A stretch of DNA of 64,000 nucleotides, from the NCBI GenBank assembly GCA_947184155.2, contig CAMXCT020002079.1:299004-363003 (forward strand), in the 5' to 3' direction. The DNA is from Cladocopium goreaui (lineage: Eukaryota > Sar > Dinophyceae > Suessiales > Symbiodiniaceae). This document shows positions 105 through 43,194 of the stretch, one piece after another. The notes under the pieces are model-generated. The model was not told the DNA's origin. It did not search any database and saw only the letters and a program-made list of their open reading frames with translations. Position 1 is the first letter of the stretch. Each line of letters starts with the position of its first letter. A program made the position numbers and the translations under genes.

Positions 105-689
105 TCAACATTTCTGAAGAAGTAGACAGCAGACACTTGGTACGCCCCAGCGATGACTCGTCGAATAAATGTCGATTGTGCGTCCAGTGAGTTGCGGGCA
201 ATCGTTGATTTCCTCGGCAGTGTTACCTCTGGTCAAATGTTGGATAGTATCATCTCCGAATATCATTTGTAAGTCTGAGAATTCGTATCCACATTCCAGA
301 ACGTAGGTGACCAGCTTCTTGAATACGAGGGATCCATGGTATGCATTTGTGAAGCCCTCTTCACCCAGGTCGTCCTTCGCATTTGGGTTGCCGATCTCTT
401 GGTAGAGCTCTCTCATTCGGTCGTCCGTCGGCTCAATGAGATATCCGTCATCATCTTCCCCTAAGTATGGTACTTTGGGGTCAAGGTCCAACCTGTAGTA
501 TGGATTCCTTTGAAATTGCTGCCATCCAGATTCAATCTCTTCACAGAAATTCCGTTGGAAGTGTCTGTAAATTCTGAGCATGTTGTTCCCGATTTGTAGC
601 AACAAGATCTTGATTAGGTCGGGTTGAGCATCACCGATCTGGCATGGCTCGGACGGTAGGACTTTGGATCCAAATTCCACTCGTTTCAT
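105..689 (-). CDS. E1 extension, small downstream frame of unknown function
   Basis: This 194-residue frame starts at an ATG whose last two bases form part of the stop of the upstream frame (ATGA at 686-689). That arrangement permits re-initiation, or it may simply mark an indel. The first 170 residues look protein-like (LLLQIGNNMLRIYRHFQ, YYRLDLDPKVPYLGEDDDGYL) and acidic, with no recognisable motif. The final residues look like out-of-frame sequence. The E1 polyprotein may continue beyond the window edge in another phase. Confidence 0.4.
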   Translation of the reverse strand: MKRVEFGSKVLPSEPCQIGDAQPDLIKILLLQIGNNMLRIYRHFQRNFCEEIESGWQQFQRNPYYRLDLDPKVPYLGEDDDGYLIEPTDDRMRELYQEIGNPNAKDDLGEEGFTNAYHGSLVFKKLVTYVLECGYEFSDLQMIFGDDTIQHLTRGNTAEEINDCPQLTGRTIDIYSTSHRWGVPSVCCLLLQKC

Positions 690-3625
690 CCATGCAGGGT
701 ATGCGATGTATGCATTTCTTGCTTCACCGGCATGGTATTCCCCAATGTCAATGTCGGCATCATCTGCTCCTTCCTCTTCAATAGTCTCGGCTTTCTCACG
801 TTCTTCTTTGAGGAAGTCATCAACTTCATCTTGTTCCCTGAAGTCTCTTTTCTCCGACTTGAGCTCGTCCGTGTCAGGCTTTTGACTCGTATCGTCATTG
901 TCCTGCTGAGTCTCTCCGGTGGACTCGACATTTTGACATCATCATCCTGCTCGATTTCCACATCCTCTTCGTCGTCACTGGTCAGGTCAATCTTGATCTT
1001 CTCCCAAGTCTGTTTGACGTGATCCTTGACGTCATCCTCATGCGAACGTTGTTCGGCAGTTGGAACGCTGGCAATGGTGATCTTGACACGCTTTCTGAAG
1101 CCATGGCTGATCAGATATCCTTTACAGAATACACAAACTGCCAGTGTCGCCGGAGTTTCACATAGACAAGCTGGGCAAAGTCTGTGACCTTCTTTGTTCG
1201 GACGATGAGTAAGTGCGAGCAATGCGATGGCATCATTCCAGTCATTGTGTTGTGGGAAAAGTCGGCATGTAAAACTTTCATGTGCCATTTTGATGTCAAT
1301 GAGTTTGCGGAGCTCACTCAAATCTGGAGAAGATTCATCAGGCACTACATTCCCGATGAGGTTGTCAAATCGATCGATGGTTGCAATTTTCTTTGCACCT
1401 TTCACGGAGAGCACGAGTTGTTCGTAACCTTTTGTGACCATCAGACGATAAAATTCTCTCCTGTTCCAGTCATAATGCCATACTGCATCAAAGGCACTGA
1501 ATGGGATCGTCTGTTGCACTAGGATGTGTCCATCTGCTGAAACTCTTGGAGCAAATTTAGCAATGGATTCATGTGTCATGTAGATGTAGACAAGGTCTGC
1601 ACCTTCGATCTTCTTGAATCTCAAAATCGATTGACTTCTTTCATCCCACGGTGCGAAAGGTACGAAAAACGTGTTGATTCGATCTCCTCCTCCTCCGGGG
1701 CATAGACCTTCTCGGAAGATTTGCGATATGCATTCAAATGTGGTACAGTGAAAACCTCCTCCGAGTGTATATCCTACACCAGGATTCATCAAATAGGAAG
1801 TCTTGCTATCATCGATTCGAACTCCGCCTGGTGTTCTGGAATGAGCCATCGGTGCCCTGATCGCTACTGGCCAAAGCCATATTTCTCGATCATTGTTGCC
1901 GATCTCGATCCTCAATCTCTGGCGGTTGATCCTCCTCGTGAATGCATTTTCTGTTCTCAAAAATCTTTCCAATTCACCCTTGGTGACTTTCAAACCAAGG
2001 ATCTGTGCTCTGATCCTTCTCGTCTGTTTGTATTCAGTGAAGATGATTTTCTGGAAGTTGTCCCACCTCTTGACGATGATCTTGCAATCAGGTTCTGAAG
2101 TTCCTGCCAGGGTGTATCCATCTCTCCATATGTGGTCATATTTCATGATGTGTTCGACATTGACCCATCCAGCTTCGTCGCAAGGTAAGCCAAAATGATC
2201 TTTCTTGTCTTTGACACATCCTACAGAATGACGAAGAGCGGCATTGAACCTCTTTGACAAATCAATCTCCCATTGAGGTGTTTCCCATTTCTTTCCCATC
2301 CACTCGTTTTCGGCATATTTCTTGACATTGCACCAACCATTGCCAACATATTCTTCACCAGAAAGTCGGGCCATTTGGAGGATGCCAACGTCGTTGCCAT
2401 AGGTGTATGGTTGAAGATAACGGAAGTTCCAGTTGGTTCCATGTTCACTTCGTTGATCTCTCATCCATTTTTGGAATTCATCTGCGCTCTTGGGGTTCAG
2501 GCCATTGAGTTCTTGAATTGTGGGCAGTACCGGTGGAGATTCTTCGGCTGCTCTCTCAACAAGTGCATCAAGCTCTTGACGATTCCTCACGCCTTGGCCT
2601 GGAGGATGAACTTCGACTCCGTTCACGATGAAAGATCCACCTTCTTCTCGATCGCTAATCTCGTACATGAAGGCAGGTTGGCTGTAGAAGCTCTTGGTCA
2701 CTTCCTCCTTCTCCGTGAATCTCGTTCTTCTCCATCTCTTTCCTTCAGGCATGATTCCTTTCTTCGGGAGCTTGTCCTTTCTTCCCCTTGTAGCAGTTCT
2801 TGATCTTTCAGAAGAAGATGGGGATTTCGATTGCTGCTCCATCATCAATCTCATGCGCATAATTGCATCAATCACCGCTTCGTTGTCCTGTGCTTGGCAT
2901 TCATCCAGATTGTGATCGCCTCCACACACTAGACAATATCGGGCATTTGATGCGTCTGCGACAACTTTCTCAAACTGATCACGGAGACTTCGAACCTCTG
3001 TTCGGCGTTTCTTCGCTTCGGAAGGTTGACCCCCCATGTCCTCTGCATCATCATCAACTTCGATGTCATCAACCCCGGTGTCTGTCTCCCCTGAAGTTTG
3101 TTCCGTCCGAGTACCACGCGCCGTAGGCGACGGAGGTTCATCTTCTGGTTCTTCAACTTCAACTTCTTCTTCATCTTCACTAGATGAGATCTCGATCATC
3201 TCAGGGTTGTCATCGTAGTTCGCTGTTGGGATGATCGGCATTCTTGTGATCTCCTTTTGCATGAGCAGATCGAAAATCTTTGCCTCCCTCAGGATTGCGA
3301 TCACCATCTCGTTCTCGACTGGAGGAATGTATGCCTTCCTTGATCGATTGCGTTTCGTGTTGATGGTGTCGGTGTGACGACAAGAGCTGCTAAACAGCCA
3401 GAAGGATTCCTCAAGTCCAGCAAGGCAACTATCGATGTTCTTCCCCCATCCTTTGAACATTGTGGGGAATTGAATTCCCATCTCAAGCATTCCAAGCCAA
3501 AACTCAAAGATGTCGCCAATGTATTCTGCAGAGGCATTGGGAGGTAGAACCGACTCAACCTCCTCTTTGGTCAGCACCGTTTTCATGTAGTCATGGTATG
3601 CAACGTTTCCTCCATCCCAGAGCAA
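686..3625 (-). CDS. E1 extension: Tpt1/KptA-type RNA 2'-phosphotransferase domain with zinc knuckle
   Basis: This 979-residue frame has an acidic N-terminal region, then a zinc-knuckle-like C-x2-C-x3-H-x4-C (CLVCGGDHNLDEC, about residue 230). The Tpt1/KptA domain spans about residues 455-720. The family's N-terminal signature is seen as ALRHSVG (about 463) and GLPCDEAGWVNVEHIM (about 480-495). IRAQ (about 537) stands in for the IRAxQGHS box. FHCTTFECISQIFREGL (about 625) equals the LYHGT...I...GL box, and DRINTFF (about 646) stands where the family has RxHVHL. The later AVWHYDW fits the GVWL strand. So the four residues needed in yeast Tpt1 (Arg, His, Arg, Arg) all have counterparts. Known enzymes move an RNA 2'-phosphate to NAD+. 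A zinc-ribbon-like CPAC...CVFC follows at about residue 855. The GHS of the third box is not conserved, so activity is unproven. Confidence 0.65.
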   Translation of the reverse strand: MLWDGGNVAYHDYMKTVLTKEEVESVLPPNASAEYIGDIFEFWLGMLEMGIQFPTMFKGWGKNIDSCLAGLEESFWLFSSSCRHTDTINTKRNRSRKAYIPPVENEMVIAILREAKIFDLLMQKEITRMPIIPTANYDDNPEMIEISSSEDEEEVEVEEPEDEPPSPTARGTRTEQTSGETDTGVDDIEVDDDAEDMGGQPSEAKKRRTEVRSLRDQFEKVVADASNARYCLVCGGDHNLDECQAQDNEAVIDAIMRMRLMMEQQSKSPSSSERSRTATRGRKDKLPKKGIMPEGKRWRRTRFTEKEEVTKSFYSQPAFMYEISDREEGGSFIVNGVEVHPPGQGVRNRQELDALVERAAEESPPVLPTIQELNGLNPKSADEFQKWMRDQRSEHGTNWNFRYLQPYTYGNDVGILQMARLSGEEYVGNGWCNVKKYAENEWMGKKWETPQWEIDLSKRFNAALRHSVGCVKDKKDHFGLPCDEAGWVNVEHIMKYDHIWRDGYTLAGTSEPDCKIIVKRWDNFQKIIFTEYKQTRRIRAQILGLKVTKGELERFLRTENAFTRRINRQRLRIEIGNNDREIWLWPVAIRAPMAHSRTPGGVRIDDSKTSYLMNPGVGYTLGGGFHCTTFECISQIFREGLCPGGGGDRINTFFVPFAPWDERSQSILRFKKIEGADLVYIYMTHESIAKFAPRVSADGHILVQQTIPFSAFDAVWHYDWNRREFYRLMVTKGYEQLVLSVKGAKKIATIDRFDNLIGNVVPDESSPDLSELRKLIDIKMAHESFTCRLFPQHNDWNDAIALLALTHRPNKEGHRLCPACLCETPATLAVCVFCKGYLISHGFRKRVKITIASVPTAEQRSHEDDVKDHVKQTWEKIKIDLTSDDEEDVEIEQDDDVKMSSPPERLSRTMTIRVKSLTRTSSSRRKETSGNKMKLMTSSKKNVRKPRLLKRKEQMMPTLTLGNTMPVKQEMHTSHTLHG

Positions 3626-5112
3626 TCGATTGTGCGGATACCAGCGTCCCCTTCCTCACATCGTGTCTCACGTTGGACTGTGAATTGGCAAAGTAGGTTT
3701 CGTCTGCATTTGCCCTTCACCATGTATGCAGGCATTCGGATCGCACCTCGATGAGATACTTGCTTCAGGACGTCGTTTGACGTTTTGTATCCAGAAATCA
3801 TCGCAAGTGTGGCTGCCATCAAGAATTTCATCAAATCTCGTTCTGCATGAAGTTCTCTCCAATCAATGCAACTATTGTAGATATTGAGGAGTCTGGCGGC
3901 AACCCGAGCATCTTGCGAGAATTCGTCCATACCAATGACTTCAGTGCCATAAGTTCCAGATCTTGTCCAATTGCTCGCGCAGTTCAGACAGCTTGTGCGA
4001 TTCTCAGTGATGGTGTCCATACGAGGGTCACCATAGATGAGGCTTTTGCAAGTGTCACACATCAGATCGGAACGTTCAGTCACTTCAATCCAGTGTTCAT
4101 CTGCGTCAGTCAAAGGTTCGGGGGTGAATACGCCTCGTCGGATGTCCGTCCATGCCCTTCTCTGACCTGAGTCCTTCATGTGCTTCATTCCTCCAATGAT
4201 GTCAGCAGATCCAGTTTGTGCATCAGCTGTCTCTCTGTTGCGGAGGTTCGGGATGACCCCAGGGTGATCAGTGCATCTTTTGATCGTCTCTAGGTCAAAG
4301 CCCGTGTTCTTCACATGAACACATTCTTCATTCAATTCATGGACCATGTAATGATCCATTGCACAGTGAAGGAAAACCTTTTGTCGCATCAAGGATTTCT
4401 CCAAAATGGCCCAGATGATCTCCTTGCCATCACCTTGCCTCCAATAGAAAGGTTCAGATCCACATGCATAAATCTGTTTCCCAAATCTTTCGTGTGTGGA
4501 ATGCATGATGCCTTTGTTCCTCAAGATCTCGGCGAACTCCTCAGCGATGGAAACGATCGATGATTGGGATCCAAAGAATCGGGCGTCCTTCAAGATGTTG
4601 ACAAAGATTGGAGTAGGTGAATATTGACTGATTTCCTCAATGATTCCAGCCAGATTTTTGGCAAAATCATCCTCGGGGACCAAAATTCGATTCTGTCCTC
4701 TAAATAGCGATGCAAAAGATATCCAGACATGTACGGTGATGTTGGTGAGAGTGTCAGCATTGTAGCGAAGAAAATTCAACGCATTTCTGGCAATCTGCAA
4801 GAATGCTTCTGGATCTTCAAGTGATTCATAAGGTAGCTGGTAGACCTTGATGGATGCCACGCCCATGTTGTTGAGACCTGCTTCAATGTCATGAGTGGTC
4901 TTTGAGGTCGACTTCGTCTGGTACGTCAAATCAGTCAGGATAAGACATTTGTTCATCCTCACCTGCCCTCCTAGCTCATCCCATGACTCAATCCACGGCC
5001 TTCCTGCGACAAATTGACCGATCTGGTTGCTCAGGCTCCTGAGTCTCCTGCGAAGGCCGCCTTCCACAGTGTCCTGAATACCTAATGTCAGCATCGCTAA
5101 GACTTCCGTCAC
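3583..5112 (-). CDS. E1 extension protein part with zinc-ribbon-like CxxC pairs, function unknown
   Basis: This 509-residue frame overlaps the previous one by 125 bases in another phase. Its protein-like sequence starts at TEVLAMLTLG, so it is probably the continuation of the polyprotein after an indel near 5110. The first half alternates hydrophobic strands and helices (KCLILTDLTYQT, ITVHVWISFASLF, PIFVNILKDARFF). I do not recognise this fold. The middle has a Cys/His-containing stretch (VFLHCAMDHYMVHEL). Two CxxC pairs about 19 residues apart (CDTCKSLIYGDP ... CLNC, about 3975-4055) look like a zinc ribbon. It lies directly upstream of the Tpt1-like part, again with a short overlap (3583-3625). 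Confidence 0.55.
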   Translation of the reverse strand: MTEVLAMLTLGIQDTVEGGLRRRLRSLSNQIGQFVAGRPWIESWDELGGQVRMNKCLILTDLTYQTKSTSKTTHDIEAGLNNMGVASIKVYQLPYESLEDPEAFLQIARNALNFLRYNADTLTNITVHVWISFASLFRGQNRILVPEDDFAKNLAGIIEEISQYSPTPIFVNILKDARFFGSQSSIVSIAEEFAEILRNKGIMHSTHERFGKQIYACGSEPFYWRQGDGKEIIWAILEKSLMRQKVFLHCAMDHYMVHELNEECVHVKNTGFDLETIKRCTDHPGVIPNLRNRETADAQTGSADIIGGMKHMKDSGQRRAWTDIRRGVFTPEPLTDADEHWIEVTERSDLMCDTCKSLIYGDPRMDTITENRTSCLNCASNWTRSGTYGTEVIGMDEFSQDARVAARLLNIYNSCIDWRELHAERDLMKFLMAATLAMISGYKTSNDVLKQVSHRGAIRMPAYMVKGKCRRNLLCQFTVQRETRCEEGDAGIRTIDCSGMEETLHTMTT

Positions 5113-8100
5113 TGGATATCCTCTGCACCTGACGAGTTCGGTAGTCGTAGTGAGATAGGTAAAGCTTCAGCCATTCATGGTCGTTCTCATTGAGCATCTG
5201 GGCATCCAATTGTCCTTCAGTCAAGATGTTGAAGGAAAGTGCTGCATGGAAGGTCAAGCGTCTCAGGTACTGTTTCCATACTAAATTCGATCCATAGACA
5301 TGAGTGGAGTGAGGACCCTCGACAGTGGAGATGACGAATTCTTTGCCCGATCTCAGAAATGCGATCCGCTGTTCTTGATGGGCATAGTCTTCGGCTGCGT
5401 AAATGTACGTCGTCACATTTGAGGGTTTCTTCCTCTTCACCCAATCAACATTTGGCGTTTTGTCCTTGTCTTCCTCTTCCGTCTCCTTTTGCTCACTTGA
5501 TGATGTAGGTCCAGGTCCGGTTCGAAATGCGGACTGCGAGGACGAGGTAGCTCCGCCGCTTGTGGATGGTCTTGGCATTCTCTTAGGCTGAACACTGCCG
5601 CCCGGCGTTGCCGTGGGTTGGGCTTGTGATCCACCTTGAGATGTTGTCCCTCCAGGCGCGCTTGATCCTCCAGTTGGGTCATCTTGTGCCCATGATGGTT
5701 CTTCATTGTTCCATGCATCAAGTTCATCCGGCAACCTTCCATCATTGATCAGAAGAGGTTCATCCCATCTGTCGAAGTTGTGCAAGTTGCCACCAGTTCC
5801 TGCTTGCGTCTCAGTCATTGTCGTGATGAAGTCTTTGAGTTGACTGTGGCAGGCATGGCGTCGTTCCTTTTCAGAATATCTTGCACCTTCGTCTGCGATG
5901 GTAACATTGTAGCCCAATCCAATCAGAATTCCCAGCGGTATGTCGAATGAGTAGATGATCGACGTCTGGATTTCCGTCCATGCGGCGACTTTGGCAAAGT
6001 TTCCATCTCCTCGAGCACTAGTCTTATGACGTTCAATTGTCGAGCCCAGTGTAAGCAGGCATAGAAAATGATTCTGAGCTGCACTCCTTCCCTTCGGGCG
6101 TTCAGTCTCGAAGTCCACAGAGTCTCTCATCACATCTTGGAGAATGATCAAGTCGTGAGGATTGTGTTGGTTGTGGTATCTCAACGAAAATCTCAAAAGT
6201 TTGATGTGGGTCTCTACCATCTGCCGCATTGTTGCAAAGTAGTTCTCATTGTCAGAGGGAGATCTTGGATTGACTTTTGCCAACTCATCCATGACCTTGA
6301 AATACTCGGCAGTTCTTGTGACAGCTAACCACGATGTTGCGCTCGGTTCTGTGTTGAATGATGGTGTGCCACGATACAACTGTTTCATGTCTCTGATCTT
6401 GGCTTCGGCAAATGCGGCACTGTGTGTGTCGTCGAATGGTTCCGGAAAATGTCCCTTGGTGAGAACGATCCACAGCTCATCAAGTCTCGAATAGATGTTT
6501 TCATCCATCAGCAGACCCACCATATTATCCTCATAGGGGCATCTCGAGGTAAAGACCTTCACAAATCTTGACCCTCTCGACACAAATTCCCAGCCTAAGC
6601 ATTCTTTCTCGGAGTCCAGCGATCTCTGCAGGATCTTGTATGCTAACTCCAGAGCTTCACCAGTGGCTTCATTGGTGTACCTGGTGTTCGCAAAGTATGC
6701 AGAATACACGATCACTGGAGGCATGCCAAATCGAATCCATTGATTGACAGTGTCCTCCGAAGAGAGCAAGCGGGGTCCCGTGTTTCGTGTGTCCCTGAAC
6801 GGAGGTGGCGTTCGAGCCGTGATCACTTTCTCATATGTCTCTTTGAGAATCGTCTGAACTATTGTGGTTCTTTTGTTTGAGAATTGTCCTAGAGACTTTA
6901 AATCAACTCCTTCCGTCATTGTGATTTTCAATGGTTCAGTCCGTATCGACAAATAACAATGCGACAATGCCCCAATCAACTCCAATAATTGTACGGACCG
7001 TTGGTCGCGAAACAAGAAATTGTCGTTGAATTCAGAAAGCAGATGCCACAGAAATGCCGAAGACCACGAAGATCTTGTCAAAGGTGATGTTGATCTCGAA
7101 AGGTACCAGTGCAGAAGAGAGCGCTCGAACGAAAGGTCGATGGCGTCGGGCCCTCGAATGGCACAGGCGTTTGTCGACACCAGCTTGATCGGGTGACTGC
7201 GGACATTCTCCGAATCACGAGACAATTCACTCAGCCAATCATCATCAGGCGCAATGATTTTCCAATGCTTTCTCACCTTGACGTTCACAAATGGACTATT
7301 CTTGATCACATGTTCATTGATGCCTTTCATAATAATCTTGGCTATCCATTTTGTATAAACTTGAGTGATGCGAGTTTCCCTACCGGCACATTCCGCATGG
7401 TCATGACGGCGATCACACTTTCTACGTAGTTTTGGAAACGATACCCCCCACGTGACAACCTTCCAAGGTTTCTTGATTGGTTTAGGAGTTTCTTGAGATT
7501 GTGATTTCAGGCCATACATGCAACCATCGAATTTGTGCTCATGAGATACAGTTCCTTCCACGAGATCAGTCATCCTACGGTCCTTCCAGTAACCACAACC
7601 TCTAGGCAGTTCAAGCAAGGCTGGCGACCCCATGTTGATGAGTTCACATAGCATTGACGTAAACACTTCCCACATGGCCCAGAAGATCTGCTTCTTTGCT
7701 TCAATGAGTTGTGTCGTCGCTTCACTGACCCATCGATTGATTCGGTTCCATGGGGAACCTCCTGTACATGGACCTGCAAAGAACACTGAATCGAGTTTGG
7801 TCCTGAGGCACCGTCTTGCTTTGCATATTCCGTATGGTGAGAGCATGTCATCATCTTCAGTGATGGGCACGACATGGAACTTCATTTCATCTTGCATCTT
7901 GTTCTGCAGAAATGTGAACCAATTTCTCTCTTCGGAACACAACAAGACGAAGCATGGGACGTCTCGAGGAACTTCAATTAGATTAATTGCAAGGGAAAAC
8001 TTGGCAAACTTGGATGTCATTAAGTCACAAGGTGATTTGGATAATTGAAATTCTAAGGTTCTGTTCTCACGATCTCTCCACAGGATTACCGACACTTTGG

Positions 8101-10711
8101 GATGGTCAACCTCATGTTTGCTTACTTCAATGTGATATTGATAGGGGACAAAAACATCAGTGATAGGGATGGTATTCAGCTCACTGCAATGGGTGCAGAG
8201 CGTGATGACTCCCTGGCTCACTTTATAGCTCTTATCACTATCGATCACTTCGGCATTGGCGAGCACCTTGAATGTCGATCTCCCTGTCCAGAATTCATTC
8301 AGTTTGTTTGTCGTTTCATTGTTGTCACCTTTGAACCTCCACATGTCTTTGATCACTCGAGTGTTCGTCCTGAATTTCTGCTCAGTTTCCCTTTCATCAC
8401 ATATGATCCTATGGTCACAAGGACAGTCTTCGCAATCCTGTGGCACGAAATTCTGCCGTCTAGGCGTTTTGTGAATTCGGATCAATGTCTCTTCCCCTTC
8501 CCACTGCCAATAGTCTTCATTTTTCTTACTAAGTCCTTGGGATTTTCGAGTAGGACTAACATGAGGAATATTGTCATTAATTTCCGGATGTTTTTGACAT
8601 GCACCATTTGAATGCGAATGCCACCCCTCACTCCCCCCATGAACAAGGCGCATCAGCGTGTTGATCACACGTGTGGCTGGCTGAAGGCATTGGTGGGTGG
8701 GTTTCGGGTGTTGAGACGGAGATGTCTGTGCGTCTAAAAACAATGCATCAACCGAAAACATCAGCATAGGTGAATCGGCCGGATGCTTGACACGACTATT
8801 GCGTGTGGACACACCAGAGTCCCGGTGGGAGCTCGAGTGGGCAGTCTGGGCGTGTGCGTACGTTGACGACGACACCCGTTGGGTTGAAGTCGTTGATGTG
8901 GATTGTGGAACAGTTTCCGGAATCAACGGCGGCTTGCTGGGCGAATGATATTGAAAACATGCGCGCTCAACCCATTTATCAAATCGGACTGCCTGCTCTG
9001 GTGGAGATGCACGGTGTTCGACCTTTGTCCATGTGCCATTGAGAAGAATCCATGTGGATCTCAACATGTCTGGCGGTACCAGCAATCCAGGTGGCTTGGG
9101 GCGATAAAACACCGGCTGCTTGACAACAAAGATCGGATCCATACCAGGCAAGTACTGAAGCTTTTCTTTACTGGTCAACCCTTTCCTATACACTTCTTTT
9201 GGCAAAATAGGGGTTTCGGTGTATGGGAAATTAGGGATGTCCTCAGTTTTGGATTGAAAGACTTGGCGAGTAGTCATGTCGACATCAGTGCTGGGTTGCA
9301 ACATATCTAACACTTCTTTACTCTGTAAGTCTTGAGGCTCCAATAGGTTGATCAACATGCAAGCTTTCTTCCATGCCATGGGATTCCTGAACCCTTTAGT
9401 ATGGATGTCAGCTGCCATTTTGGCTGTAATTTCATAGATCAAAACGAAATGATCCTTTTGGAAATGCTCATGCATGGAGGCAATGGAGATACCATGTGTG
9501 CGCTCCAAATGACGTATGGTTGGATTGCGTCCTGATCTGACAACACCAATCATACCTTGATTATCGTCATGAAACAGGAGCTGGGGAAAAACTTTGGCTA
9601 AGACTTTCCACAGACTTAATGCGGGGATTCCCAAAGTCCTAAGAGCAGTATCAGCGGCCACTATTTCAGCTTCGGGGGTTGAATGACTAACACACCCTTG
9701 TCGCTTACTTCCACCAGCAAGTGGGAACCTTGTGAACTTACCTTGGACTTGTAAGTGCGATCCTGAAGTTGATCTTAAGGATTGAGCACATCCGGCGAAA
9801 TCCGCATCTGCAAAGAGTCCTAACGATAAATCTTCAATTTTGTCACCGACCCATCCTATCATTTTGAGGGACAATGTGGAATTAACGTAACACATTAAGT
9901 GATGAAGACGGGCGTCATCATCCTTAGTCCACTTGGTCACATTGCGTGCCGATGCATTGATGGATCTTAAAAGGTCAAACCGCGCAATGCGGGCTGCATA
10001 CAGCAGCTTCATAAGCACACTAGCTGCATGCGGAGCTAGATTCCCTCGATTCAGCGTCTCACTGTCTTGGCCAGGACGTGAGTTGTCGGTCTCGTTGAGA
10101 GCCGACATCTCCGGATCGAAAGAATGTGCACACCACGGACACTCGACTTTGCGTCTTCCATCGGAAGGAGCTCGGTATGGGCTGTATTTCGTTTCCTCTG
10201 GAAGGCTAGGAGTCGAAACCTTTTTCAGTTTTGTGTCCTTACCAATTATGTCAAGATACTTTTCTACCGATAACTTCAACAACCCTTCCATGTTGTAAGT
10301 TATGGTCTTGACTCTCTTTCCATTGTGGAGTTGGGTCTCGCCTTGGGAAAGTACACATCCAAGATAAAGACCTAAATCGGTTTCGGGTTCGATGCGCAAA
10401 ACTGTGCGCAACATTTCCCAACCTTTGGCCAAGTTTTCAGATGGTCCAGCTAGTTTGAGGTCATCTACATAGATTACCAATAACAGTTTGAGCTCATCAT
10501 GAAAATACATCGACGGCCATTCCTCTCCGATGGGTTTGAAACCAATTTCTTGGACCTTCTTATCACAATGTTGTTCCCACATCGTGCCTGAATCGGGATG
10601 TCCATATAGAGCTTTGTCAAGTCTTACGACAGGGCGTCGAAACTTCCAGTATTGAATCTCGGGTGGCCAAGCGTCGGTGGGTAATTCCACCCAACATAGA
10701 GGTCCCTTCAA
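4988..10711 (-). CDS. E1 RT C-terminal part, RNase H and 3' extension with methyltransferase-like domain
   Basis: This open frame encodes about 1907 residues; its listed start is a TTG that only marks re-entry into frame. Residues 1-130 are RT, including KALYGHPDSG and the catalytic YVDD (LLVIYVDDLKLAG, about residue 80). RNase H follows at about 290-470, with FADADFAG, STPEAEIVAAD and DDNQGMI. After a proline/serine-rich linker comes a segment with RIHKTPRR and FWTGRSTF, then a C-x2-C pair (CTHC). At about 7920-7330 comes a Rossmann-like region with FVLLCSEERNW, GPCTGGSPW, LELPRGCGYW, FDGCMYGL, KKPWKV and CDRRHDH. This series parallels motifs I, IV, VI and VIII and the C-terminal Cys/His part of C5-methyltransferase-like proteins. 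The remainder is helical, with a low-complexity G/S/P/T stretch near 5480-5720. No other function is recognised. Confidence 0.75.
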   Translation of the reverse strand: MKGPLCWVELPTDAWPPEIQYWKFRRPVVRLDKALYGHPDSGTMWEQHCDKKVQEIGFKPIGEEWPSMYFHDELKLLLVIYVDDLKLAGPSENLAKGWEMLRTVLRIEPETDLGLYLGCVLSQGETQLHNGKRVKTITYNMEGLLKLSVEKYLDIIGKDTKLKKVSTPSLPEETKYSPYRAPSDGRRKVECPWCAHSFDPEMSALNETDNSRPGQDSETLNRGNLAPHAASVLMKLLYAARIARFDLLRSINASARNVTKWTKDDDARLHHLMCYVNSTLSLKMIGWVGDKIEDLSLGLFADADFAGCAQSLRSTSGSHLQVQGKFTRFPLAGGSKRQGCVSHSTPEAEIVAADTALRTLGIPALSLWKVLAKVFPQLLFHDDNQGMIGVVRSGRNPTIRHLERTHGISIASMHEHFQKDHFVLIYEITAKMAADIHTKGFRNPMAWKKACMLINLLEPQDLQSKEVLDMLQPSTDVDMTTRQVFQSKTEDIPNFPYTETPILPKEVYRKGLTSKEKLQYLPGMDPIFVVKQPVFYRPKPPGLLVPPDMLRSTWILLNGTWTKVEHRASPPEQAVRFDKWVERACFQYHSPSKPPLIPETVPQSTSTTSTQRVSSSTYAHAQTAHSSSHRDSGVSTRNSRVKHPADSPMLMFSVDALFLDAQTSPSQHPKPTHQCLQPATRVINTLMRLVHGGSEGWHSHSNGACQKHPEINDNIPHVSPTRKSQGLSKKNEDYWQWEGEETLIRIHKTPRRQNFVPQDCEDCPCDHRIICDERETEQKFRTNTRVIKDMWRFKGDNNETTNKLNEFWTGRSTFKVLANAEVIDSDKSYKVSQGVITLCTHCSELNTIPITDVFVPYQYHIEVSKHEVDHPKVSVILWRDRENRTLEFQLSKSPCDLMTSKFAKFSLAINLIEVPRDVPCFVLLCSEERNWFTFLQNKMQDEMKFHVVPITEDDDMLSPYGICKARRCLRTKLDSVFFAGPCTGGSPWNRINRWVSEATTQLIEAKKQIFWAMWEVFTSMLCELINMGSPALLELPRGCGYWKDRRMTDLVEGTVSHEHKFDGCMYGLKSQSQETPKPIKKPWKVVTWGVSFPKLRRKCDRRHDHAECAGRETRITQVYTKWIAKIIMKGINEHVIKNSPFVNVKVRKHWKIIAPDDDWLSELSRDSENVRSHPIKLVSTNACAIRGPDAIDLSFERSLLHWYLSRSTSPLTRSSWSSAFLWHLLSEFNDNFLFRDQRSVQLLELIGALSHCYLSIRTEPLKITMTEGVDLKSLGQFSNKRTTIVQTILKETYEKVITARTPPPFRDTRNTGPRLLSSEDTVNQWIRFGMPPVIVYSAYFANTRYTNEATGEALELAYKILQRSLDSEKECLGWEFVSRGSRFVKVFTSRCPYEDNMVGLLMDENIYSRLDELWIVLTKGHFPEPFDDTHSAAFAEAKIRDMKQLYRGTPSFNTEPSATSWLAVTRTAEYFKVMDELAKVNPRSPSDNENYFATMRQMVETHIKLLRFSLRYHNQHNPHDLIILQDVMRDSVDFETERPKGRSAAQNHFLCLLTLGSTIERHKTSARGDGNFAKVAAWTEIQTSIIYSFDIPLGILIGLGYNVTIADEGARYSEKERRHACHSQLKDFITTMTETQAGTGGNLHNFDRWDEPLLINDGRLPDELDAWNNEEPSWAQDDPTGGSSAPGGTTSQGGSQAQPTATPGGSVQPKRMPRPSTSGGATSSSQSAFRTGPGPTSSSEQKETEEEDKDKTPNVDWVKRKKPSNVTTYIYAAEDYAHQEQRIAFLRSGKEFVISTVEGPHSTHVYGSNLVWKQYLRRLTFHAALSFNILTEGQLDAQMLNENDHEWLKLYLSHYDYRTRQVQRISSDGSLSDADIRYSGHCGRRPSQETQEPEQPDRSICRRKAVD
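7330..7960 (-). other. DNA C5-methyltransferase-like domain inside E1 extension
   Basis: In order on the minus strand: beta-strand-like FVLLCS (about 7950), FHVVPITEDDD, SVFFAGPCTGGSPW (7745-7785; Pro-Cys as in motif IV), a helix with FWAMWEVF, LELPRGCGYW (7587-7617; in the place of the ENV motif), FDGCMYGL (about 7510-7530), KKPWKVVTWG (about 7450-7476) and CDRRHDHAECAG (about 7390-7420). Methyltransferases of this fold often have a C-x-Y-G ... RKPTRIWTN segment and a Cys/His cluster at the same place. The canonical ENV and QxRxR signatures are absent, so activity is uncertain. A structure-based comparison would be needed to settle the fold. Confidence 0.45.
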
Positions 10712-11364
10712 CTTCGCCTGGATATAAGCTTAATTGCATCTGCGAGCTTGACAGAATGCCCAGGAAGACATCCGAAGAAATCGGCCCATCGTGAGGCTTC
10801 GAAGGATGCAGGGGAGTTCCCTAAGTCTTGAAAGAACGCTGCTTCCCAATGTTGGTTCTTCACTTGATTGCCCAGTAGAACACCTCTCCCTTTGAACTTT
10901 CGACCAGGATTACCTTCAGGAAGTTGGTAATTCTTCTCGACACATATACCATGAACTCTAGCCATATGAACTTCCTTCTTGTTCTTCTTGGCTTCCGCAA
11001 CCACGTCATCATATTCTCGGACCATTGAGAAATCAAACACTTCTTGATCTCGGAGTCCTTTCCACTCCTTGAGCATTGCTTCCTTTGCTTTGGGATTGGA
11101 TTCAATCTCTGCTCTGCCAACTGGTCGTGAAACCATGGCGTTGAAGAGCTTTCCCCCCAGACCTCCAGGAGGTACTTTGGTTCGATGGATGTTACTGGGT
11201 GCAGATGTACATGGCATAGTAGGGAATGCTATGAAATCGTCATCATCGTCTGTGGTTGTGTCCTTCATGTTCTTGACGTTGACACACTTGCCATTTTTGA
11301 TCATGGTCGATTCACCCGGCGTTGCCGTGGAAGACTTCGAGATCACACCAGCGAAGTGTTCCAA
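10708..11364 (-). CDS. E1 reverse transcriptase, N-terminal part (frameshifted)
   Basis: This 218-residue frame carries the start of the copia RT domain: EAMLKEWKGLRDQEVF near 11030, followed by KGRGVLLGNQV and ASFEASRWADFF. It breaks off just before the segment equivalent to DIxxAYLQA. The next frame picks up at about 10730 with the sense of YIQAKLKGP. At the junction the DNA reads AAGCTTATATCC. The expected reading would need one more base in the AAG-CTT step, so a single-base deletion is the simplest explanation. The N-terminal 60 residues are low complexity with a run of aspartates. Confidence 0.7.
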   Translation of the reverse strand: MEHFAGVISKSSTATPGESTMIKNGKCVNVKNMKDTTTDDDDDFIAFPTMPCTSAPSNIHRTKVPPGGLGGKLFNAMVSRPVGRAEIESNPKAKEAMLKEWKGLRDQEVFDFSMVREYDDVVAEAKKNKKEVHMARVHGICVEKNYQLPEGNPGRKFKGRGVLLGNQVKNQHWEAAFFQDLGNSPASFEASRWADFFGCLPGHSVKLADAIKLISRRS

Positions 11365-12713
11365 ACTTCACCACTCCACGATGCTTTCGGGCCACGCCCT
11401 TTCTCGACCTCCGACCACTCGTCCCATTCAGTGAGATATTCCTCGTCGTCCGGGACGTCAGTAGAAGCATCGGAACATGGGCTCGCATCAGCACTCCTTC
11501 CAATCTTCCGACAATCAATGTAACGTTTTCCATGGATGTCATCGTCATCAACGATGTCGTACATGTCAAGATATGCACTCGTACATGTGATAGGCAAAGT
11601 AACTTTGTTCTTCATCACCTCACCAACACCTGCATCGGATTTCTTCGACTTTGAGTGCGGATCGTCCTGCCCACCTTCATCGTCTTTCTCGTCATCGTCT
11701 TTGGACTTTGACATGCCTTTGTCCTTCTTTGAATCTTTCTTCTCCTTCTTCAGTGATTTCTTCTTCACTTCCTCAATCTTTCTTTTGTTCTTCTCATCGG
11801 CCTCCTTCTTTTCCAACTTCTTCTTCTCAGCCTTGAGGATGACGTTTCGGTCAGATTGAGACAGCTTTCGCCATTCTTCTGGAGAATAGGTGCCCTTAGG
11901 TCTTAATGACGTTTTGAAGAGTCTTCTACCATCTTCTCCAATCTTGTAAGGGTTTCCTTTGATATTCAATTTGACCTTCTCGCCGTCATCATTGAGGTAT
12001 ACCTTCCCGTCCCCAGCTTTGCCTGACTTCCAGTGATCTGGTTGTGCATCTATGAGTTCTTGTAAAGTCATCTCTTCTGGGTCCTTGTCATCGAAGATAT
12101 CCTCAGAGGCTTCGAGAGGCTTCTTTGAGGCTTTTCCACCACTAGGTCCAGGTCCACCGTCGTCTTCGTCATCAAGCTCATCATCGTCTTCTTCCTGTTC
12201 ATCTTCTTCATTATCATCGTCACGAGGTCTTTTGGATGAGTCACCATCAAGGAGTTCCTTTTCCTTCATTCCCTCCAAAGTCGTATTCATTCTCTCATAT
12301 TCTTGTTTGCATGGGAATGTCAATGGCGTGACCATCTCAACTTTCTCGGTCAGATGAGGTTTGAGAAGACGATGTTCTGGCTTGCTGGCATCATCACCAA
12401 GATTCTGATGTACAAACTCACTCAATGGCCAGACTTTGTATTGTCTTGACCAATGGATCCCTGGGCCAATGTGATATCCTGCGCAAACTCCTGGTATGGA
12501 ATCAGGCCCAAATTTGTGGAGTTGACCTGCTTCTCTTGTCTTCGGAGGCCTGTAGTTCACACGAGCACCATAGGGAATGAGTTTTCCAGCAAAGTCGGTC
12601 CCATGGAGTTTACACCAAGCACTGAGTTCATCATCATTGGGTTCTACGTTGAGTAGATGGCATACACAAAGGATTGCAGTTCTCCAGAAACATGGTGGTA
12701 ATCCGGCTTCTAA
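11343..12713 (-). CDS. E1 integrase C-terminal part and acidic linker
   Basis: This frame is in phase with the upstream Gag-protease-integrase frame and is separated from it only by the amber codon at 12714. The first ATG after the stop is at 12560, but homology-like sequence starts immediately (LEAGLPPCFWRTA, then RPPKTREAG). The N-terminal third is the end of the copia integrase core and its GKF/Y-type C-terminal region. The rest is a very charged linker rich in D, E and K, with a lysine-rich stretch around 11650-11850. It ends where an adjacent frame (11364-10708) takes over. The linker region is common between integrase and RT in copia elements; I see no separate domain in it. Confidence 0.7.
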   Translation of the reverse strand, partial: LEAGLPPCFWRTAILCVCHLLNVEPNDDELSAWCKLHGTDFAGKLIPYGARVNYRPPKTREAGQLHKFGPDSIPGVCAGYHIGPGIHWSRQYKVWPLSEFVHQNLGDDASKPEHRLLKPHLTEKVEMVTPLTFPCKQEYERMNTTLEGMKEKELLDGDSSKRPRDDDNEEDEQEEDDDELDDEDDGGPGPSGGKASKKPLEASEDIFDDKDPEEMTLQELIDAQPDHWKSGKAGDGKVYLNDDGEKVKLNIKGNPYKIGEDGRRLFKTSLRPKGTYSPEEWRKLSQSDRNVILKAEKKKLEKKEADEKNKRKIEEVKKKSLKKEKKDSKKDKGMSKSKDDDEKDDEGGQDDPHSKSKKSDAGVGEVMKNKVTLPITCTSAYLDMYDIVDDDDIHGKRYIDCRKIGRSADASPCSDASTDVPDDEEYLTEWDEWSEVEKGRGPKASWSGEVWNTSLV

Positions 12714-15700
12714 CTAACATGTAGATGTTGCCGTCAGAATGAATTGATTCGTTCTTTCGGCGATGGAATTTGTCTGAGGTCTTCCAGGCAGTGAATGATC
12801 AATTGGAATCTTCATCTCATTCATTGCTTCAATGAATTGTGGGGCATGATCAGAGTAGGCCTGTCTGACCTTTTTTGCGCCGATGAACTGTTTCACCGCT
12901 CTGACTACATCATCCTTGGTCATTCTGTCGGACGGATAAGCACCGATGATCCCTGTAAAACAGTCTCTGACGACTAACACTTCCTTCTCCAGCACCAATA
13001 CATCATCATGAACTTTGGATGTATCGACAGCATCGAATGTGATGAGGTCGCCGAATTTCTTGAGTTCCCTTTTGTATGATCCTCTACGAGTCTTGAAATG
13101 TTTCATCTTTGCGCGAATGCATAAATCACAGTATGGATTTTTGTATCTGTGAGTCAACTTGTGGTTCAAACTGTTTGCTTCCCTTTTGAGTGTTCCTCTC
13201 TTGGCTACCCTGGATTCACCTTCAACAACGTCGATTTCGATGTCGTCTTCATCATCTTCAGCGACTTCTTCAGGGGCTCCATGTCCTTCATCCTCCAGGT
13301 CAGTCTCTTCACCAACTGGGGGGCCATCATATGGAGTACCTGGTGCGTATCCTTCATCATCAGATGGAACTTCTTCTCCAGGTGATGCCATTTTTCTTCG
13401 TCGATTCCCTGCCTTCCTTTTCTTCTTCACCTTGAGCTTCTTGACGCGTTGGGAATCGTCTTGACTATCATTTGATACCTCGAATCCACTTTCTCCATCA
13501 AGATATACTCTTCGGGATGTTCGGCCTATCCCATCTAAGTCATCGAAGTTATCGATGCTTTCTTGGAAATGTTCAAGTAGATCACGGATCTTCGATGTTT
13601 GATGGCATTCATATGGAGTACATTCGTATGTCCCAAGATCAATGTAGGGGATGTTGTCGTGGATCGTCAGATCAATGCGTTCCCCATTCTTTGTGATCAT
13701 GAATGGCATCTTACCAGAAGGCCACACGAAGGAATATCCCTCTTCCATACATCGTTTCCCAAGAGACATCACTGATGGAGTATCATCAAGGACGTAGGCT
13801 TGTGAGATCACGTCAAAGGTTCCCAAGTCAATCTCGGCTTCTGTTGGAGTAGCAGTTGAACCGTTCGCAGTGTGGAACATGATGGGATCACAAATCCTTT
13901 TCTTCAAGTTCATTCTTTCAGCTTTTCGTGCAGAGATAAGATCATGTCCGCTACCGGAATCAAGAATGAATCTTCTATCTTTGGCTTGTACAGGTAGTGA
14001 AATGCACATAAGATTCTTGGATTTCTTGAGGGATCCTTCAACTTCGTGCTCAACAAGCTCTTCCAAGAAGACTAAATCCTCGTTGTCATTGTCCAATTTG
14101 ATCAGCATATCGAACTTCGGGCCGATAATAATTCTCACCTCATCCACGTCGCGATGGAATCCGGTGTTGGTCATGATGATAGCTTTGGCTCTTGCCCGAG
14201 TTTGACCAAGAGTACTGTCAGATTTGGACTGATCATCTATCAGGTCTTCGATCTTCCTGAACACATAGGGCTTGTTGGGATCACGATATCCCTCCGGGTA
14301 GTCCTTGATAGGAATCTTGTGGACTTCAGGTTCCAGGTCGAACGTGATCTTGCGAGCATCGGGAGACTTCTTTGCGCTGGCTATCCTCGGTGAGGAATAA
14401 TCCTTTGCATCTTCGGTGTCGCTATCAAAGAAGGAATCAATAGTAATGGGAACCGCTTTCTTCTTCTTGTCTTTGTTGCTGGCTCTTTCAGAGGATGCTG
14501 ATGGGGATTGGTCTGCATGTAGAAACTTGCATTTGCTTCCAAATGTACAGGTACCTTTCTGCCACTGCCAGCATACTCTCTTCTTGGGTCCAGCTGATGA
14601 AGAACTTCCCTTACTCCTCCTTCCAGATGAGTCTCTGCTTCGACTTCTACCTTTCTTATCTTTCATCTTGGCATCGTAGACCTTCTGAGAATGACTGTAG
14701 AGACACTTATCACCTTTGTTACATCCACCTTTATTGAAGAAGTAATTGCAGAATATCTTCTTCTTGTCAGTGGGTGATGATGATCTTCCCTTCCCACCTT
14801 TGCCCTTGCCTTTCTTGTTCTTGTCGGCATGGGACTTCGGAGAAGGTGTGGGAAGGACAGATGCAGCTTCACTTTTCGCCTTGGCTTTGGGCTTCCCTTT
14901 GGGAGGATCACCGGCGGATGAAGCAGCTGCAGCGTCTTCCTTCTTCGTCTTGGTGGGCGCAGCAGTTCTTACGTCGTCTTCCAAGGCTGGTGAAGTCTTG
15001 TTAGAAGTCAACGACAACTTGACTGCACGCTCTCTATCTTTCAACAGTCTTTCTTGCTTCCCTCTGGCAATGTATCCTTTGATCATGTTGAGTAGGAAGT
15101 CATAGGTCTTTTCAGGATGCCCTTCATCAAAGGTACGATATCGGCTGATATCAAAGTGCATAAGCTTTGAATGTTCAATTTTCCGGAACCGCGTGTCACG
15201 CAGGGAGTTCGTAGAAGGTCGATCATCATGCTTCATGTTGTACACAATGTCAAGCCATTTGTTGTAGAAGGCCTCAAGTTGGTCATCTCCATAATAACTG
15301 AACACGTACAAATGATGAGAGTTGTAGAGGACTTCAGTGTGGTCAGGTGACTTGAAGCTTATCAAAATCATTGCGAATAGCTCTCGTCCCTTAATGAAGT
15401 CTCCACTCTTCCCATACATCTGGTTCTTCATGGACATGTCATACTTCACTTGCATAGACTTGTCCCCAGCATTGTCGATGACTTTCCTCAAAGCATTGGA
15501 GAGCTTAGCATCTATGGATTGGAATCTCACTTCAGGTGCCTTGGCTAGTGCTTCCAAGTCTGGTTGATCTGCGAGACATGGGGCTAGCCTTGCTTTCCAA
15601 TCTTCATAATGTCGATCTCCGCTTGCAACGCAAACTTCATGAACAACACTTCCCTTCCAGGATGAAAGTTCAGTGGTCTTAGGCCATGGTTGTAGATTGA

Positions 15701-17888
15701 TCTTCTCTGCTTCCCGTTGAGAGACAGATGAATTTGACTTGTCCTTCTCAAGGTTCTCCAACTCAATGACGTTGGCGTTGTACTCATTCCTGAGTTTCTC
15801 GAAAGCTTCAGCTTCGGCACGAAACTCTTGTTCCTCATCATTGGCGCGATCCTCGGCTTGGGAAAAGTTGTTCTTGTAGTAGTCTTTACGCTCTTCCATC
15901 TTTGCTAGTTCATCTCGAAGAGCGTTGACTTCCGACTTCTTTTCCTGTTTCATCTCTTCCAGTTCAGCTTTCAACTTGGCACACTTCTCTTCACACTCAT
16001 TTCGAGGAAAAGCATTGTTGGATGATCCATACATTATTGCTTGCATGTTCTGTGCTGAAGATGAAGCGGCCTGATTCTCAAGCTTCAGTGCAGCGATGGT
16101 GCTCGACATCTCTTCCACCTCTGTCTGACGTTCACTGACCAGATGGTGCATTTCTGTCAGGTGACTCTCAGGAATAGAATAATCTGTTGCTCCCTTGATG
16201 ATGAGCCGTCTATCATTCAACATGCTGATAGCTTTGTTGGCATCTCGTTGAACACGATCATGATATTCCTTCTGAGTAGCAACTTCAGTGTTGAGTCGAT
16301 TGATCGCTTCATCTCTGTCACTGATCTCATTGTGTAATTTATCGAACATGTCACTGGAAGTGTTTGGATTGGTATTCAAGAAATCGATCCTTTCCAAGGC
16401 ATCTTGATACTTCTTCCCAAGCGACCCATATGAATTTTGATAGGTCTTGAGCAGTGCGTCGTTGTCGGCGAGTTCGGCTCTAGCTCTCTGTAGTAGAGTG
16501 TCGACATCATCTTTGGATTTCATGACCTTTTCATAGTCACATCGTACCTGATTGTACATCTCATAGTAAATCCCATGTGATGGAGAAACACTTGGAGATG
16601 ACTGTCTGGCTTGTTGGCATGAAAGTTCATGATACTGATTCTTCGATTCAGTCAGTTGTTGTTGCATTCGATTCAAGAGGCTTTGTTTCATGTGCAGTTC
16701 AGAGCGTAGTTCCATGATCCTCATGTCACGCATCCCACTCACCTTAGAGGTCAGCTCTTCAGAATACCTGCTTTCAGATGCGGCCAGTTGCGATTGTAGC
16801 CCTTCATTGCGGATAATCTGTAGCTGAAGTTGTGATTCCTCCAAAGCTAGACGGTGTTCACATTCAGAATATCTGTTGTGTTCGGATCTCAGGTCACTAC
16901 GAAATTCTCTCATGATGTCTTCCCTCTTCGCATCAGCAGAATCAAGCTCCGTTTCCAGTCGTCTGATGTTCAATGACATAGTGCTCTTCATCATTTGGTT
17001 TTGATTCGCAACCTCGAGCATCTCAATATGAAGTGCACATGTCTGGTCATTGGCATACCCGACAGCTAGGGCTTCCTGTTTCGCGTTCATCTCTGCGTTC
17101 TCCAGTTCCAGTCTGAGTTGATTGATATGTGCATTTGCATCCGTGCCCACATGTACCATGATTGCATTCGCTTGTCCCATTTGTTCATTAAATTCAGATC
17201 TCAATTGTGAATATCGAAATTCCAGATGAGATGCTGCTTCATTTGACATAGTTCGATACCTCTCCAACTCTTCAATCCTGTAAGTTGCACCTTCATCTTC
17301 CTGTTGAGCGGCGAGCAACTCAGAGTTCAGGGTTTGAAGTTGTTGAGCCATCGATGTCATCTCTTGATGAGTGGTGTTCTCCAAATAGTTAAACTGTTGA
17401 TCGGCATAGGCGGCCATCTCGGTCAATCTCGCTTGAAGCACAGATTCTTCTTCAGTAGCTCTGTCCAGTGATGCTTTGTACTCTGACAGTTCACTTTGAT
17501 ATGCAGTGAAGACGTCGGTACCACTCGATGGAGCATTCACTTGTTGAAAAGATCCTACCCCTGATGGTGTAGCGTCCTGAATCGGTGAAGGCGGATTCGA
17601 AGATGTAGGCTTCGCCTTAGTCCTCGGAGTCATCGGAGGCGACGATTGTCGTGCGGACGATCTCCTCTTTCCAGGTGTATTGTCCCTGTCTTCGATTGCT
17701 TGCATTGTCGGCATTAATCTCCCTCTCGGGGCAACCAGAGGTCGTCTGGATGTGCTAGGTCTCAGTTCTGAGGTTTCGCTTCCACCAGTATCGAAACTCT
17801 GTGAAGAATTTGACTGTGTGCCGGCAGCTGGTGCGGCGGCATGTCCAGCAAATGAGAATGCGTTGTCGCTACTGTCCTCTTCAGCCAT
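12714..17888 (-). CDS. E1 Gag-protease-integrase polyprotein, ended by in-frame amber codon
   Basis: This 1724-residue frame starts at the ATG at 17888. Residues about 130-720 are rich in E, Q, L and R in heptad-like order and look like a long coiled coil, probably the capsid scaffold. Two CCCH zinc fingers lie near residues 1044-1064 (C-x8-C-x5-C-x3-H) and 1102-1120 (C-x7-C-x5-C-x3-H); they are the likely RNA-binding part. The aspartic protease motif DSGSG is near residue 1308, with a matching HTANG further on. The integrase follows: an H/C zinc site (THRYKNPYCDLC) near 1580, then the catalytic residues D (FDAVD, about 1617), D (YSDHAPQF, about 1678) and E (NSIAERTN, about 1708). A TAG at 12714-12716 interrupts the integrase. 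The same frame continues at once with LEAGLPPCFW, the usual copia continuation, so this is a nonsense change and not a true end. Confidence 0.85.
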   Translation of the reverse strand: MAEEDSSDNAFSFAGHAAAPAAGTQSNSSQSFDTGGSETSELRPSTSRRPLVAPRGRLMPTMQAIEDRDNTPGKRRSSARQSSPPMTPRTKAKPTSSNPPSPIQDATPSGVGSFQQVNAPSSGTDVFTAYQSELSEYKASLDRATEEESVLQARLTEMAAYADQQFNYLENTTHQEMTSMAQQLQTLNSELLAAQQEDEGATYRIEELERYRTMSNEAASHLEFRYSQLRSEFNEQMGQANAIMVHVGTDANAHINQLRLELENAEMNAKQEALAVGYANDQTCALHIEMLEVANQNQMMKSTMSLNIRRLETELDSADAKREDIMREFRSDLRSEHNRYSECEHRLALEESQLQLQIIRNEGLQSQLAASESRYSEELTSKVSGMRDMRIMELRSELHMKQSLLNRMQQQLTESKNQYHELSCQQARQSSPSVSPSHGIYYEMYNQVRCDYEKVMKSKDDVDTLLQRARAELADNDALLKTYQNSYGSLGKKYQDALERIDFLNTNPNTSSDMFDKLHNEISDRDEAINRLNTEVATQKEYHDRVQRDANKAISMLNDRRLIIKGATDYSIPESHLTEMHHLVSERQTEVEEMSSTIAALKLENQAASSSAQNMQAIMYGSSNNAFPRNECEEKCAKLKAELEEMKQEKKSEVNALRDELAKMEERKDYYKNNFSQAEDRANDEEQEFRAEAEAFEKLRNEYNANVIELENLEKDKSNSSVSQREAEKINLQPWPKTTELSSWKGSVVHEVCVASGDRHYEDWKARLAPCLADQPDLEALAKAPEVRFQSIDAKLSNALRKVIDNAGDKSMQVKYDMSMKNQMYGKSGDFIKGRELFAMILISFKSPDHTEVLYNSHHLYVFSYYGDDQLEAFYNKWLDIVYNMKHDDRPSTNSLRDTRFRKIEHSKLMHFDISRYRTFDEGHPEKTYDFLLNMIKGYIARGKQERLLKDRERAVKLSLTSNKTSPALEDDVRTAAPTKTKKEDAAAASSAGDPPKGKPKAKAKSEAASVLPTPSPKSHADKNKKGKGKGGKGRSSSPTDKKKIFCNYFFNKGGCNKGDKCLYSHSQKVYDAKMKDKKGRSRSRDSSGRRSKGSSSSAGPKKRVCWQWQKGTCTFGSKCKFLHADQSPSASSERASNKDKKKKAVPITIDSFFDSDTEDAKDYSSPRIASAKKSPDARKITFDLEPEVHKIPIKDYPEGYRDPNKPYVFRKIEDLIDDQSKSDSTLGQTRARAKAIIMTNTGFHRDVDEVRIIIGPKFDMLIKLDNDNEDLVFLEELVEHEVEGSLKKSKNLMCISLPVQAKDRRFILDSGSGHDLISARKAERMNLKKRICDPIMFHTANGSTATPTEAEIDLGTFDVISQAYVLDDTPSVMSLGKRCMEEGYSFVWPSGKMPFMITKNGERIDLTIHDNIPYIDLGTYECTPYECHQTSKIRDLLEHFQESIDNFDDLDGIGRTSRRVYLDGESGFEVSNDSQDDSQRVKKLKVKKKRKAGNRRRKMASPGEEVPSDDEGYAPGTPYDGPPVGEETDLEDEGHGAPEEVAEDDEDDIEIDVVEGESRVAKRGTLKREANSLNHKLTHRYKNPYCDLCIRAKMKHFKTRRGSYKRELKKFGDLITFDAVDTSKVHDDVLVLEKEVLVVRDCFTGIIGAYPSDRMTKDDVVRAVKQFIGAKKVRQAYSDHAPQFIEAMNEMKIPIDHSLPGRPQTNSIAERTNQFILTATSTC

Positions 17889-43190: not shown

Positions 43191-43194
43191 CGGG

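Follow-up and report, generated by a model that had tools for sequence, protein, structure and literature searches.

Why would a retrotransposon encode an enzyme of RNA repair? The question is raised by an open reading frame (ORF) at 686-3625 on the minus strand of a 64,000-nucleotide stretch of the dinoflagellate Cladocopium goreaui (GenBank assembly GCA_947184155.2, contig CAMXCT020002079.1, positions 299,004 to 363,003; the whole stretch is called the window below), in which a sequence-only reading had proposed a Tpt1/KptA RNA 2'-phosphotransferase domain carried by a giant copia element. Our preferred answer, held with moderate confidence, is that the ORF contains a selectively maintained member of the Tpt1/KptA family, encoded behind the reverse transcriptase (RT) in the polyprotein of a giant Ty1/copia element, and that this domain would remove 2'-phosphates in an NAD+-dependent reaction serving the RNA or primer of the element.

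The six motifs on which the earlier claim was built are all present in the ORF and in the order given: ALRHSVG (residue 463), GWVNVEHIM (486), IRAQ (538), FHCTTF (625), DRINTFF (648) and AVWHYDW (714). In CthTpt1, Arg18, His19, Arg68 and Arg121 hold the 3'- and 2'-phosphates of the RNA junction and an HGT motif holds NAD+ (PMC6333775). The claimed counterparts of this Arg-His-Arg-Arg tetrad also stand, as R465, H466, R539 and R649, with the IRAQ Arg (539) as third tetrad Arg in several alignments and R649 placed partly by hand. In alignment A1 (27 rows, the window piece among them), these residues are kept in 25, 26, 27 and 26 rows, respectively, and the HGT-type NAD+ motif retains H626 and T628 in all 27, with Cys as the middle residue in 24. 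Alignment A2, whose 30 rows include 11 relatives of E. coli KptA, has Arg and His at R465 and H466 in 29 rows (one gap) and Arg at R539 in 29 of 30, while R590, H595, H626 and T628 are invariant. All eight positions checked were kept in 12 of 12 of the closest genome copies, the window's own place (L030) included.

Individual pairings support the same assignment. In several alignments, the IRAQ Arg falls on the Arg of the KptA K-x-R-F motif and IRAPMAHS falls on IRAxxGHS; the window's RIRAQ lies opposite the K-x-R-F of a related polyprotein, P0323, and in one alignment opposite that of KptA as well. R649 stands opposite the Arg of the KptA GER motif in one alignment and by hand, a pairing favoured by eye in P0323 (RRRRALVHCSPF) and in a second relative, P0288 (GSRDHAFFGEFAPWD). 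Two further candidates for the third tetrad Arg were overturned: later alignments put IRAPMAHS (residue 589) on IRAxxGHS, and favour R539 over R572. The window domain has counterparts of LRH, K-x-R-F, IRAxxGHS, HxT and the GER Arg of Tpt1/KptA (PF01885; E. coli KptA, CthTpt1), and its S457 and K458 match Ser10-Lys11 of CthTpt1; it differs in HCT for HGT, AHS for GHS, a long insertion in the RNA lobe and its setting in a retrotransposon polyprotein.

The match to PF01885 that the sequence-only reading expected is strong in related polyproteins, but the window domain alone stays below the curated Pfam cut-off of 26 bits. Searching with the RT part (residues 1-480 of ORF 4988-10711) matched 223 proteins, 120 of them listed. 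P0323 (2770 amino acids) holds RVT_2 and PF01885 in one frame, the latter at E 7.2e-23 and 82 bits over 5-175 of 177 positions, and P0271 also has both in the same frame, with PF01885 at 25.5 bits. A hidden Markov model (HMM) of the window's family found P0288, P0242, P0253 (named by NCBI as Symbiodinium sp. KB8), P0268 and P0235 among the 120 relatives, in frame with RT, and was built without those sequences; a Pfam scan at E <= 1 did not show PF01885 in P0288, P0242, P0253 or P0235, and matched P0268 weakly (E 0.0047). P0294 was found by a later HMM and by a sub-cut-off Pfam match (18.8 bits); that HMM included five of the eight proteins it found and is not counted as independent support. 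In A1, 22 of the 27 rows have a PF01885 match with E <= 0.01, the strongest at 1.9e-5. The proposed domain is thus borne out by related copia polyproteins that bridge to canonical Tpt1, and we conclude from these comparisons that the ORF carries a divergent Tpt1/KptA domain. In a tree of 22 Tpt1 rows, the window groups with P0288 and P0242 (100/100) and family E with family F (99/95); its deeper branches do not resolve, and the tree does not show where the domain came from. No relatives came up in IMG/VR, scanned with A1 and P0323, or in one scan of genome contigs with A1; these tools may leave out near records.

Profile searches of the window's own assembly (1,165,616,438 bases), whose counts are lower bounds, show that the domain is abundant. 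PF01885 gave 1496 first-look candidates, and 150 of the best 150 scored above the cut-off; these 150 include five with an internal stop and do not include the window's place. The three top places have frames of 185-335 amino acids, and one of them, on a 7.4-Mb contig, probably belongs to a bacterial companion. A search with the window domain itself gave 923 candidates, and each of the 121 scored (window included) covers at least 328 of 331 residues; three have an internal stop, 25 lie in frames of at least 4000 amino acids and eight in frames of at least 5900. The sequence-only reading had named absence of the domain from other copies as a result that would refute it; no such absence was found, as all 121 scored places carry the domain.

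We examined 20 PF01885 places with HMMs built in this analysis for protease, integrase, RT and a block shared among the relatives. In five of the 20 (L022, L023, L024, L027 and L028), a single open frame runs through protease, integrase, RT, shared block and Tpt1, and L025 and L026 have the same domain order over two and three frames. RT was not seen in the stretch examined at L010-L018 (families A and B), where L016 has the shared block upstream, or at L019-L021, where a different frame of L020 gives an integrase-like match; L029 carries Tpt1 as a gene of its own. Family A (L010-L017) has a full-length Tpt1 domain (95 bits in L010, 88 bits in L017) in frames of up to 2760 amino acids, with no RT within about 8.5 kb upstream to mark it as copia. 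The protease-integrase-RT-RNase H order of copia was found, RNase H by position and by eye only. One-frame RT fusions, together with the long terminal repeats (LTRs) of the copy C825 described below, bear out the claim that a giant copia element carries the domain.

The ratio of nonsynonymous to synonymous divergence (dN/dS) of the 331-residue domain, estimated by NG86 over 66 pairs from 12 copies (L030-L041; two with one stop each, stop codons skipped), has a median of 0.107 (range 0.056-0.202; median dS 0.418). By part, with one of the 66 pairs dropped for dS <= 0.1 or too few codons (65 pairs each), dN/dS is 0.113 in the N lobe, 0.085 in the NAD lobe, 0.130 and 0.137 in the upstream stretches and 0.076 downstream. 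The whole extension is constrained, and the NAD lobe more so than the upstream linker.

Several results weigh against the preferred reading. PF01885 matches the 331-residue window piece at E 4.3e-4 (20.8 bits) and the whole ORF at E 0.004 (17.6 bits), both under the cut-off. None of nine relatives rescanned exceeded it (best 25.3 bits): six match PF01885 positions 4-122 or 4-123 at about 25 bits and a seventh matches over 4-82, and P0064 and P0075 have no match. Comparison of the window family with the KptA family by hhalign gave a probability of 24.8% (E 7.8e-4), and its global mode gave no useful alignment of the two. An AlphaFold2 model of the domain is too low in confidence to show a fold (predicted local distance difference test 42.5, predicted template modelling score 0.36). 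At the active site, A2 pairs R649 with the VHL His in its 11 KptA rows, an earlier and weaker hhalign alignment puts the KptA KKRF further on than R539, R539 and R590 are 51 positions apart compared with 11 in E. coli KptA, and HCT replaces HGT. Families E and F have Gly at the position of the tetrad His, with the first, third and fourth Arg kept. Finally, dN/dS is low outside the domain too (0.076-0.137), which therefore indicates constraint on the whole tail and not on the domain alone.

Within the window, the element reads on the minus strand and comprises the following parts.

105-689, minus: downstream fragment of the polyprotein's C-terminal extension, in another frame here but continuous with the Tpt1 part in the reading frame of P0010 and others
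686-3625, minus: Tpt1-domain ORF of 979 amino acids, a fragment of the C-terminal extension in a broken copy
1406-2269, minus: Tpt1/KptA-like domain, residues about 453-740, with R465, H466, R539 and R649, IRAPMAHS at 589-596 and HCT at 626-628
3583-5112, minus: upstream fragment of the extension, in another frame here but read through into the Tpt1 part by P0010 and P0062
4988-10711, minus: remainder of the reverse transcriptase, RNase H (from position and by eye, no Pfam match) and extension
10708-11364, minus: N-terminal portion of the reverse transcriptase, placed by colinearity with relatives
11343-12560, minus: stretch linking integrase to reverse transcriptase, by colinearity with relatives
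12714-17888, minus: gag-like part with CCCH zinc fingers, aspartyl protease and an integrase-like end (weak IS481-type match)
17932-17949, minus: candidate primer-binding site adjoining the 5' LTR, GGTTATCAGCCGTAGGTC
17950-18183, minus: 5' LTR, 234 bp, TG...CA, with TTTGGCTCAAG as in the dinoflagellate spliced leader (DinoSL)

The protease and RVT_2 of the window were recognized by Pfam and the integrase-like end by a weak NCBIfam match; the block in the extension of ORF 4988-10711 that is common to relatives is methyltransferase-like by eye. P0010 reads ORFs 4988-10711, 3583-5112, 686-3625 and 105-689 as one frame over these junctions, and P0062 does so over the first of them. Because its coding part is split over several frames, the window copy itself is probably dead. 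Of its two LTRs the window shows the 5' one, and the 3' LTR was not found within 3.7 kb to the left of the window. Precomputed Pfam matches place other cargo in the same RT line: PF00692 (dUTPase) in P0296, P0299, P0321 and P0324, PF00658 (PABP C-terminal domain) in P0298 and P0300, and PF12851 (Tet/JBP dioxygenase) in P0276.

The ends of the element are defined by other copies. In C825, the LTRs (229 bp, TGCGAAT...GATTCGCA) are 100% identical, the LTR-to-LTR span is about 19.4 kb and the open frame is 6125 amino acids; its gag start (89674), RT (82489-81200) and Tpt1 (74038-73046) share one frame key, with the intervening stretches known only from the frame length. The LTRs of C1535 are 94.5% identical, and GTTAT flanks both outer sides as a 5-bp target duplication. 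A run of G (GTGGGGGG) lies just before the 3' LTR. In the window's 5' LTR, the start follows from 117 bp that match the C399 3' LTR at 91%, and the end from the conserved primer site. The C825 RT is 97.7% identical to the window RT over 430 residues. Between window and C825, RT has a dS of 0.475 and a dN of 0.015, whereas Tpt1 has saturated dS and a dN of 0.167, a difference that suggests recombination between subfamilies; in DNA, window positions 9422-10711 (RT) are 91% identical to C825 and 1316-2308 (Tpt1 part) 72% (L049, L050).

Immediately following the 5' LTR is GGTTATCAGCCGTAGG in C825, in C1535 and, from 17949 (minus), in the window; the primer region of C399 departs from it after GGTTATC. 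The primer-binding site proposed from sequence is therefore upheld as anatomy, as a candidate site adjoining the 5' LTR. Its start, GGTTAT, resembles the half-tRNA site of Drosophila copia; matches to two copia primer-site patterns in the window were not above those in shuffles. Continuing from the primer site is a palindrome (CCGTAGGACTCCTACGG) that is kept in C825 and C1535 (L042, L044, after the 5' LTR). Should tRNA-Ile(IAU) be the primer, inosine could have left its imprint as the C opposite the wobble position. The LTRs (L042-L047 and the window) also contain a stretch like the 3' part of DinoSL: GCCTCTTTGGCTCAAG agrees at 14 of 16 positions in C825 and C1535, TTTGGCTCAAG at 11 of 11 in the window, and C399 by eye. 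Against 500 base shuffles, 0, 1 and 2 were as good; DinoSL is absent from the 64-kb window with up to 3 mismatches allowed. The element RNA may start with, or imitate, a trans-spliced leader.

Elsewhere in the window, a second copia-like element lies on the plus strand at 31752-40729, with identical 82-bp ends (31752-31833 and 40648-40729). It has GGTTATGAGCCCAAGTC directly after the first end and a block, GGPPCRTVS...EQPEDP, that is C5 methyltransferase-like by eye, and gave no match to the Tpt1 domain. Positions 43000-62000 are dense in tandem repeats, with periods including 9, 14, 16, 17, 42, 53 and 85 bases.

What might the domain do? Tpt1 transfers an RNA 2'-phosphate to NAD+, and its best-studied substrate is an internal 2'-phosphate beside a 3'-phosphodiester (PMC6333775). 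With the tetrad and HxT conserved, the domain of the element most likely still uses NAD+ for removal of RNA 2'-phosphates, and, because it is made in one polyprotein with RT, it would probably act on the RNA that the element copies or primes from. Its targets may be the 2'-phosphate scars that resealing of cut element RNA or tRNA leaves behind, or else phosphates at primer ends. Scars of this kind block reverse transcriptase, and Tpt1 is used in cDNA cloning to remove them. Phosphates left in place would stop reverse transcription, and the enzyme would keep the RNA or primer copyable. Not all element Tpt1 domains may act alike, given the Gly at the tetrad His in families E and F. Four places from two copia families other than the window's (L022, L025, L027 and L028) have Arg-Gly at the tetrad Arg-His, with the remaining motifs kept. 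Some elements (families E and F) may have changed chemistry, and the substrate may differ between elements.

Other roles can be weighed on the same evidence. The domain might protect the element's RNA or cDNA by capping 5'-phosphate ends with ADP-ribose, as bacterial and fungal Tpt1 and TRPT1 ADP-ribosylate 5'-phosphate RNA in vitro (PMC9458441) and the same polyprotein region has the block that is methyltransferase-like by eye; we consider this unlikely, although credible, as the junction-binding residues, tetrad His included, are kept in the window family. Slightly less likely is the proposal of the sequence-only reading that the domain frees a tRNA half of its 3'-end phosphate and so enables priming. 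In its favour, GGTTATCAGCCGTAGG adjoins the LTR in C825, in C1535 and in the window itself, and a subset of Tpt1 enzymes reportedly removes terminal 2' or 3' phosphates. However, a 2',3'-cyclic phosphate must be opened by another enzyme before Tpt1-type clearing, ordinary copia elements with half-tRNA primers to our knowledge manage without Tpt1, and the window's second element, with a similar primer site, gave no match to the domain.

A role in counter-defence, in which the domain mends element RNA or host tRNAs after cleavage by a host RNase, would parallel phage KptA, as KptA has been proposed for RNA repair in phages and is present in a few RNA-virus polyproteins (PMC9503650); ligase and 2H domains were absent from Pfam scans of the window ORFs, L022 and L027, and we give this role a small chance. 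That the domain is a catalytically dead RNA- or NAD-binding module is more doubtful again: HCT for HGT, the Gly of families E and F and the long insertion would fit such a module, but the tetrad and HxT residues are nearly invariant in the window family. The idea of an artefact, the chance capture of a host gene by a single degenerate copy, draws on the broken state of the window copy and the 3' LTR missing from the 3.7 kb to its left; it is refuted by the domain in 121 of 121 scored places, the one-frame RT fusions and the identical LTRs of C825.

The element resembles Ty1/copia (Pseudoviridae) in its protease-integrase-RT order and in its TG...CA LTRs, 5-bp duplication (C1535), LTR-side primer site and G-run before the 3' LTR. 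Unlike Ty1/copia, C825 has a span of about 19.4 kb, a frame of about 6100 codons and thousands of residues behind RT that include Tpt1. A few RNA viruses, Beihai picorna-like virus and Botrylloides leachii nidovirus among them, have KptA in their polyproteins, and it also occurs in sawfly nucleopolyhedroviruses and Bodo saltans virus (PMC9503650). The RNA-virus cases are similar in having KptA inside the polyprotein of an RNA-copying element, and differ in that they are positive-strand RNA viruses; the text of that paper has no word beginning with 'transpos'. DNA methyltransferases have been captured by LINE and DIRS retrotransposons of Symbiodinium (PMC5890265), again dinoflagellate retrotransposons with a captured enzyme domain whose key residues are kept, although the enzyme acts on DNA and the elements are not copia. 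No report of a retrotransposon-borne Tpt1 came up in the literature searched, which was judged mostly by title or the start of the abstract and left subscription papers mostly outside.

We tentatively propose, at somewhat under even confidence, a clade of giant copia elements with built-in NAD+-dependent repair of RNA ends or scars in reverse transcription, in which Tpt1 would be among the most repeated enzyme domains of the host and divergent elements (the window type, E, F and perhaps A, C and D) would carry diverged versions, some with changed active sites. That Tpt1/KptA is common in organisms without a known substrate is a stated puzzle (PMC6333775). A selfish element that keeps Tpt1 with RT under strong selection suggests that the natural substrate belongs to the cycle of RNA copying and opens the question to experiment, and RNA repair would join the functions captured by LTR retrotransposons.

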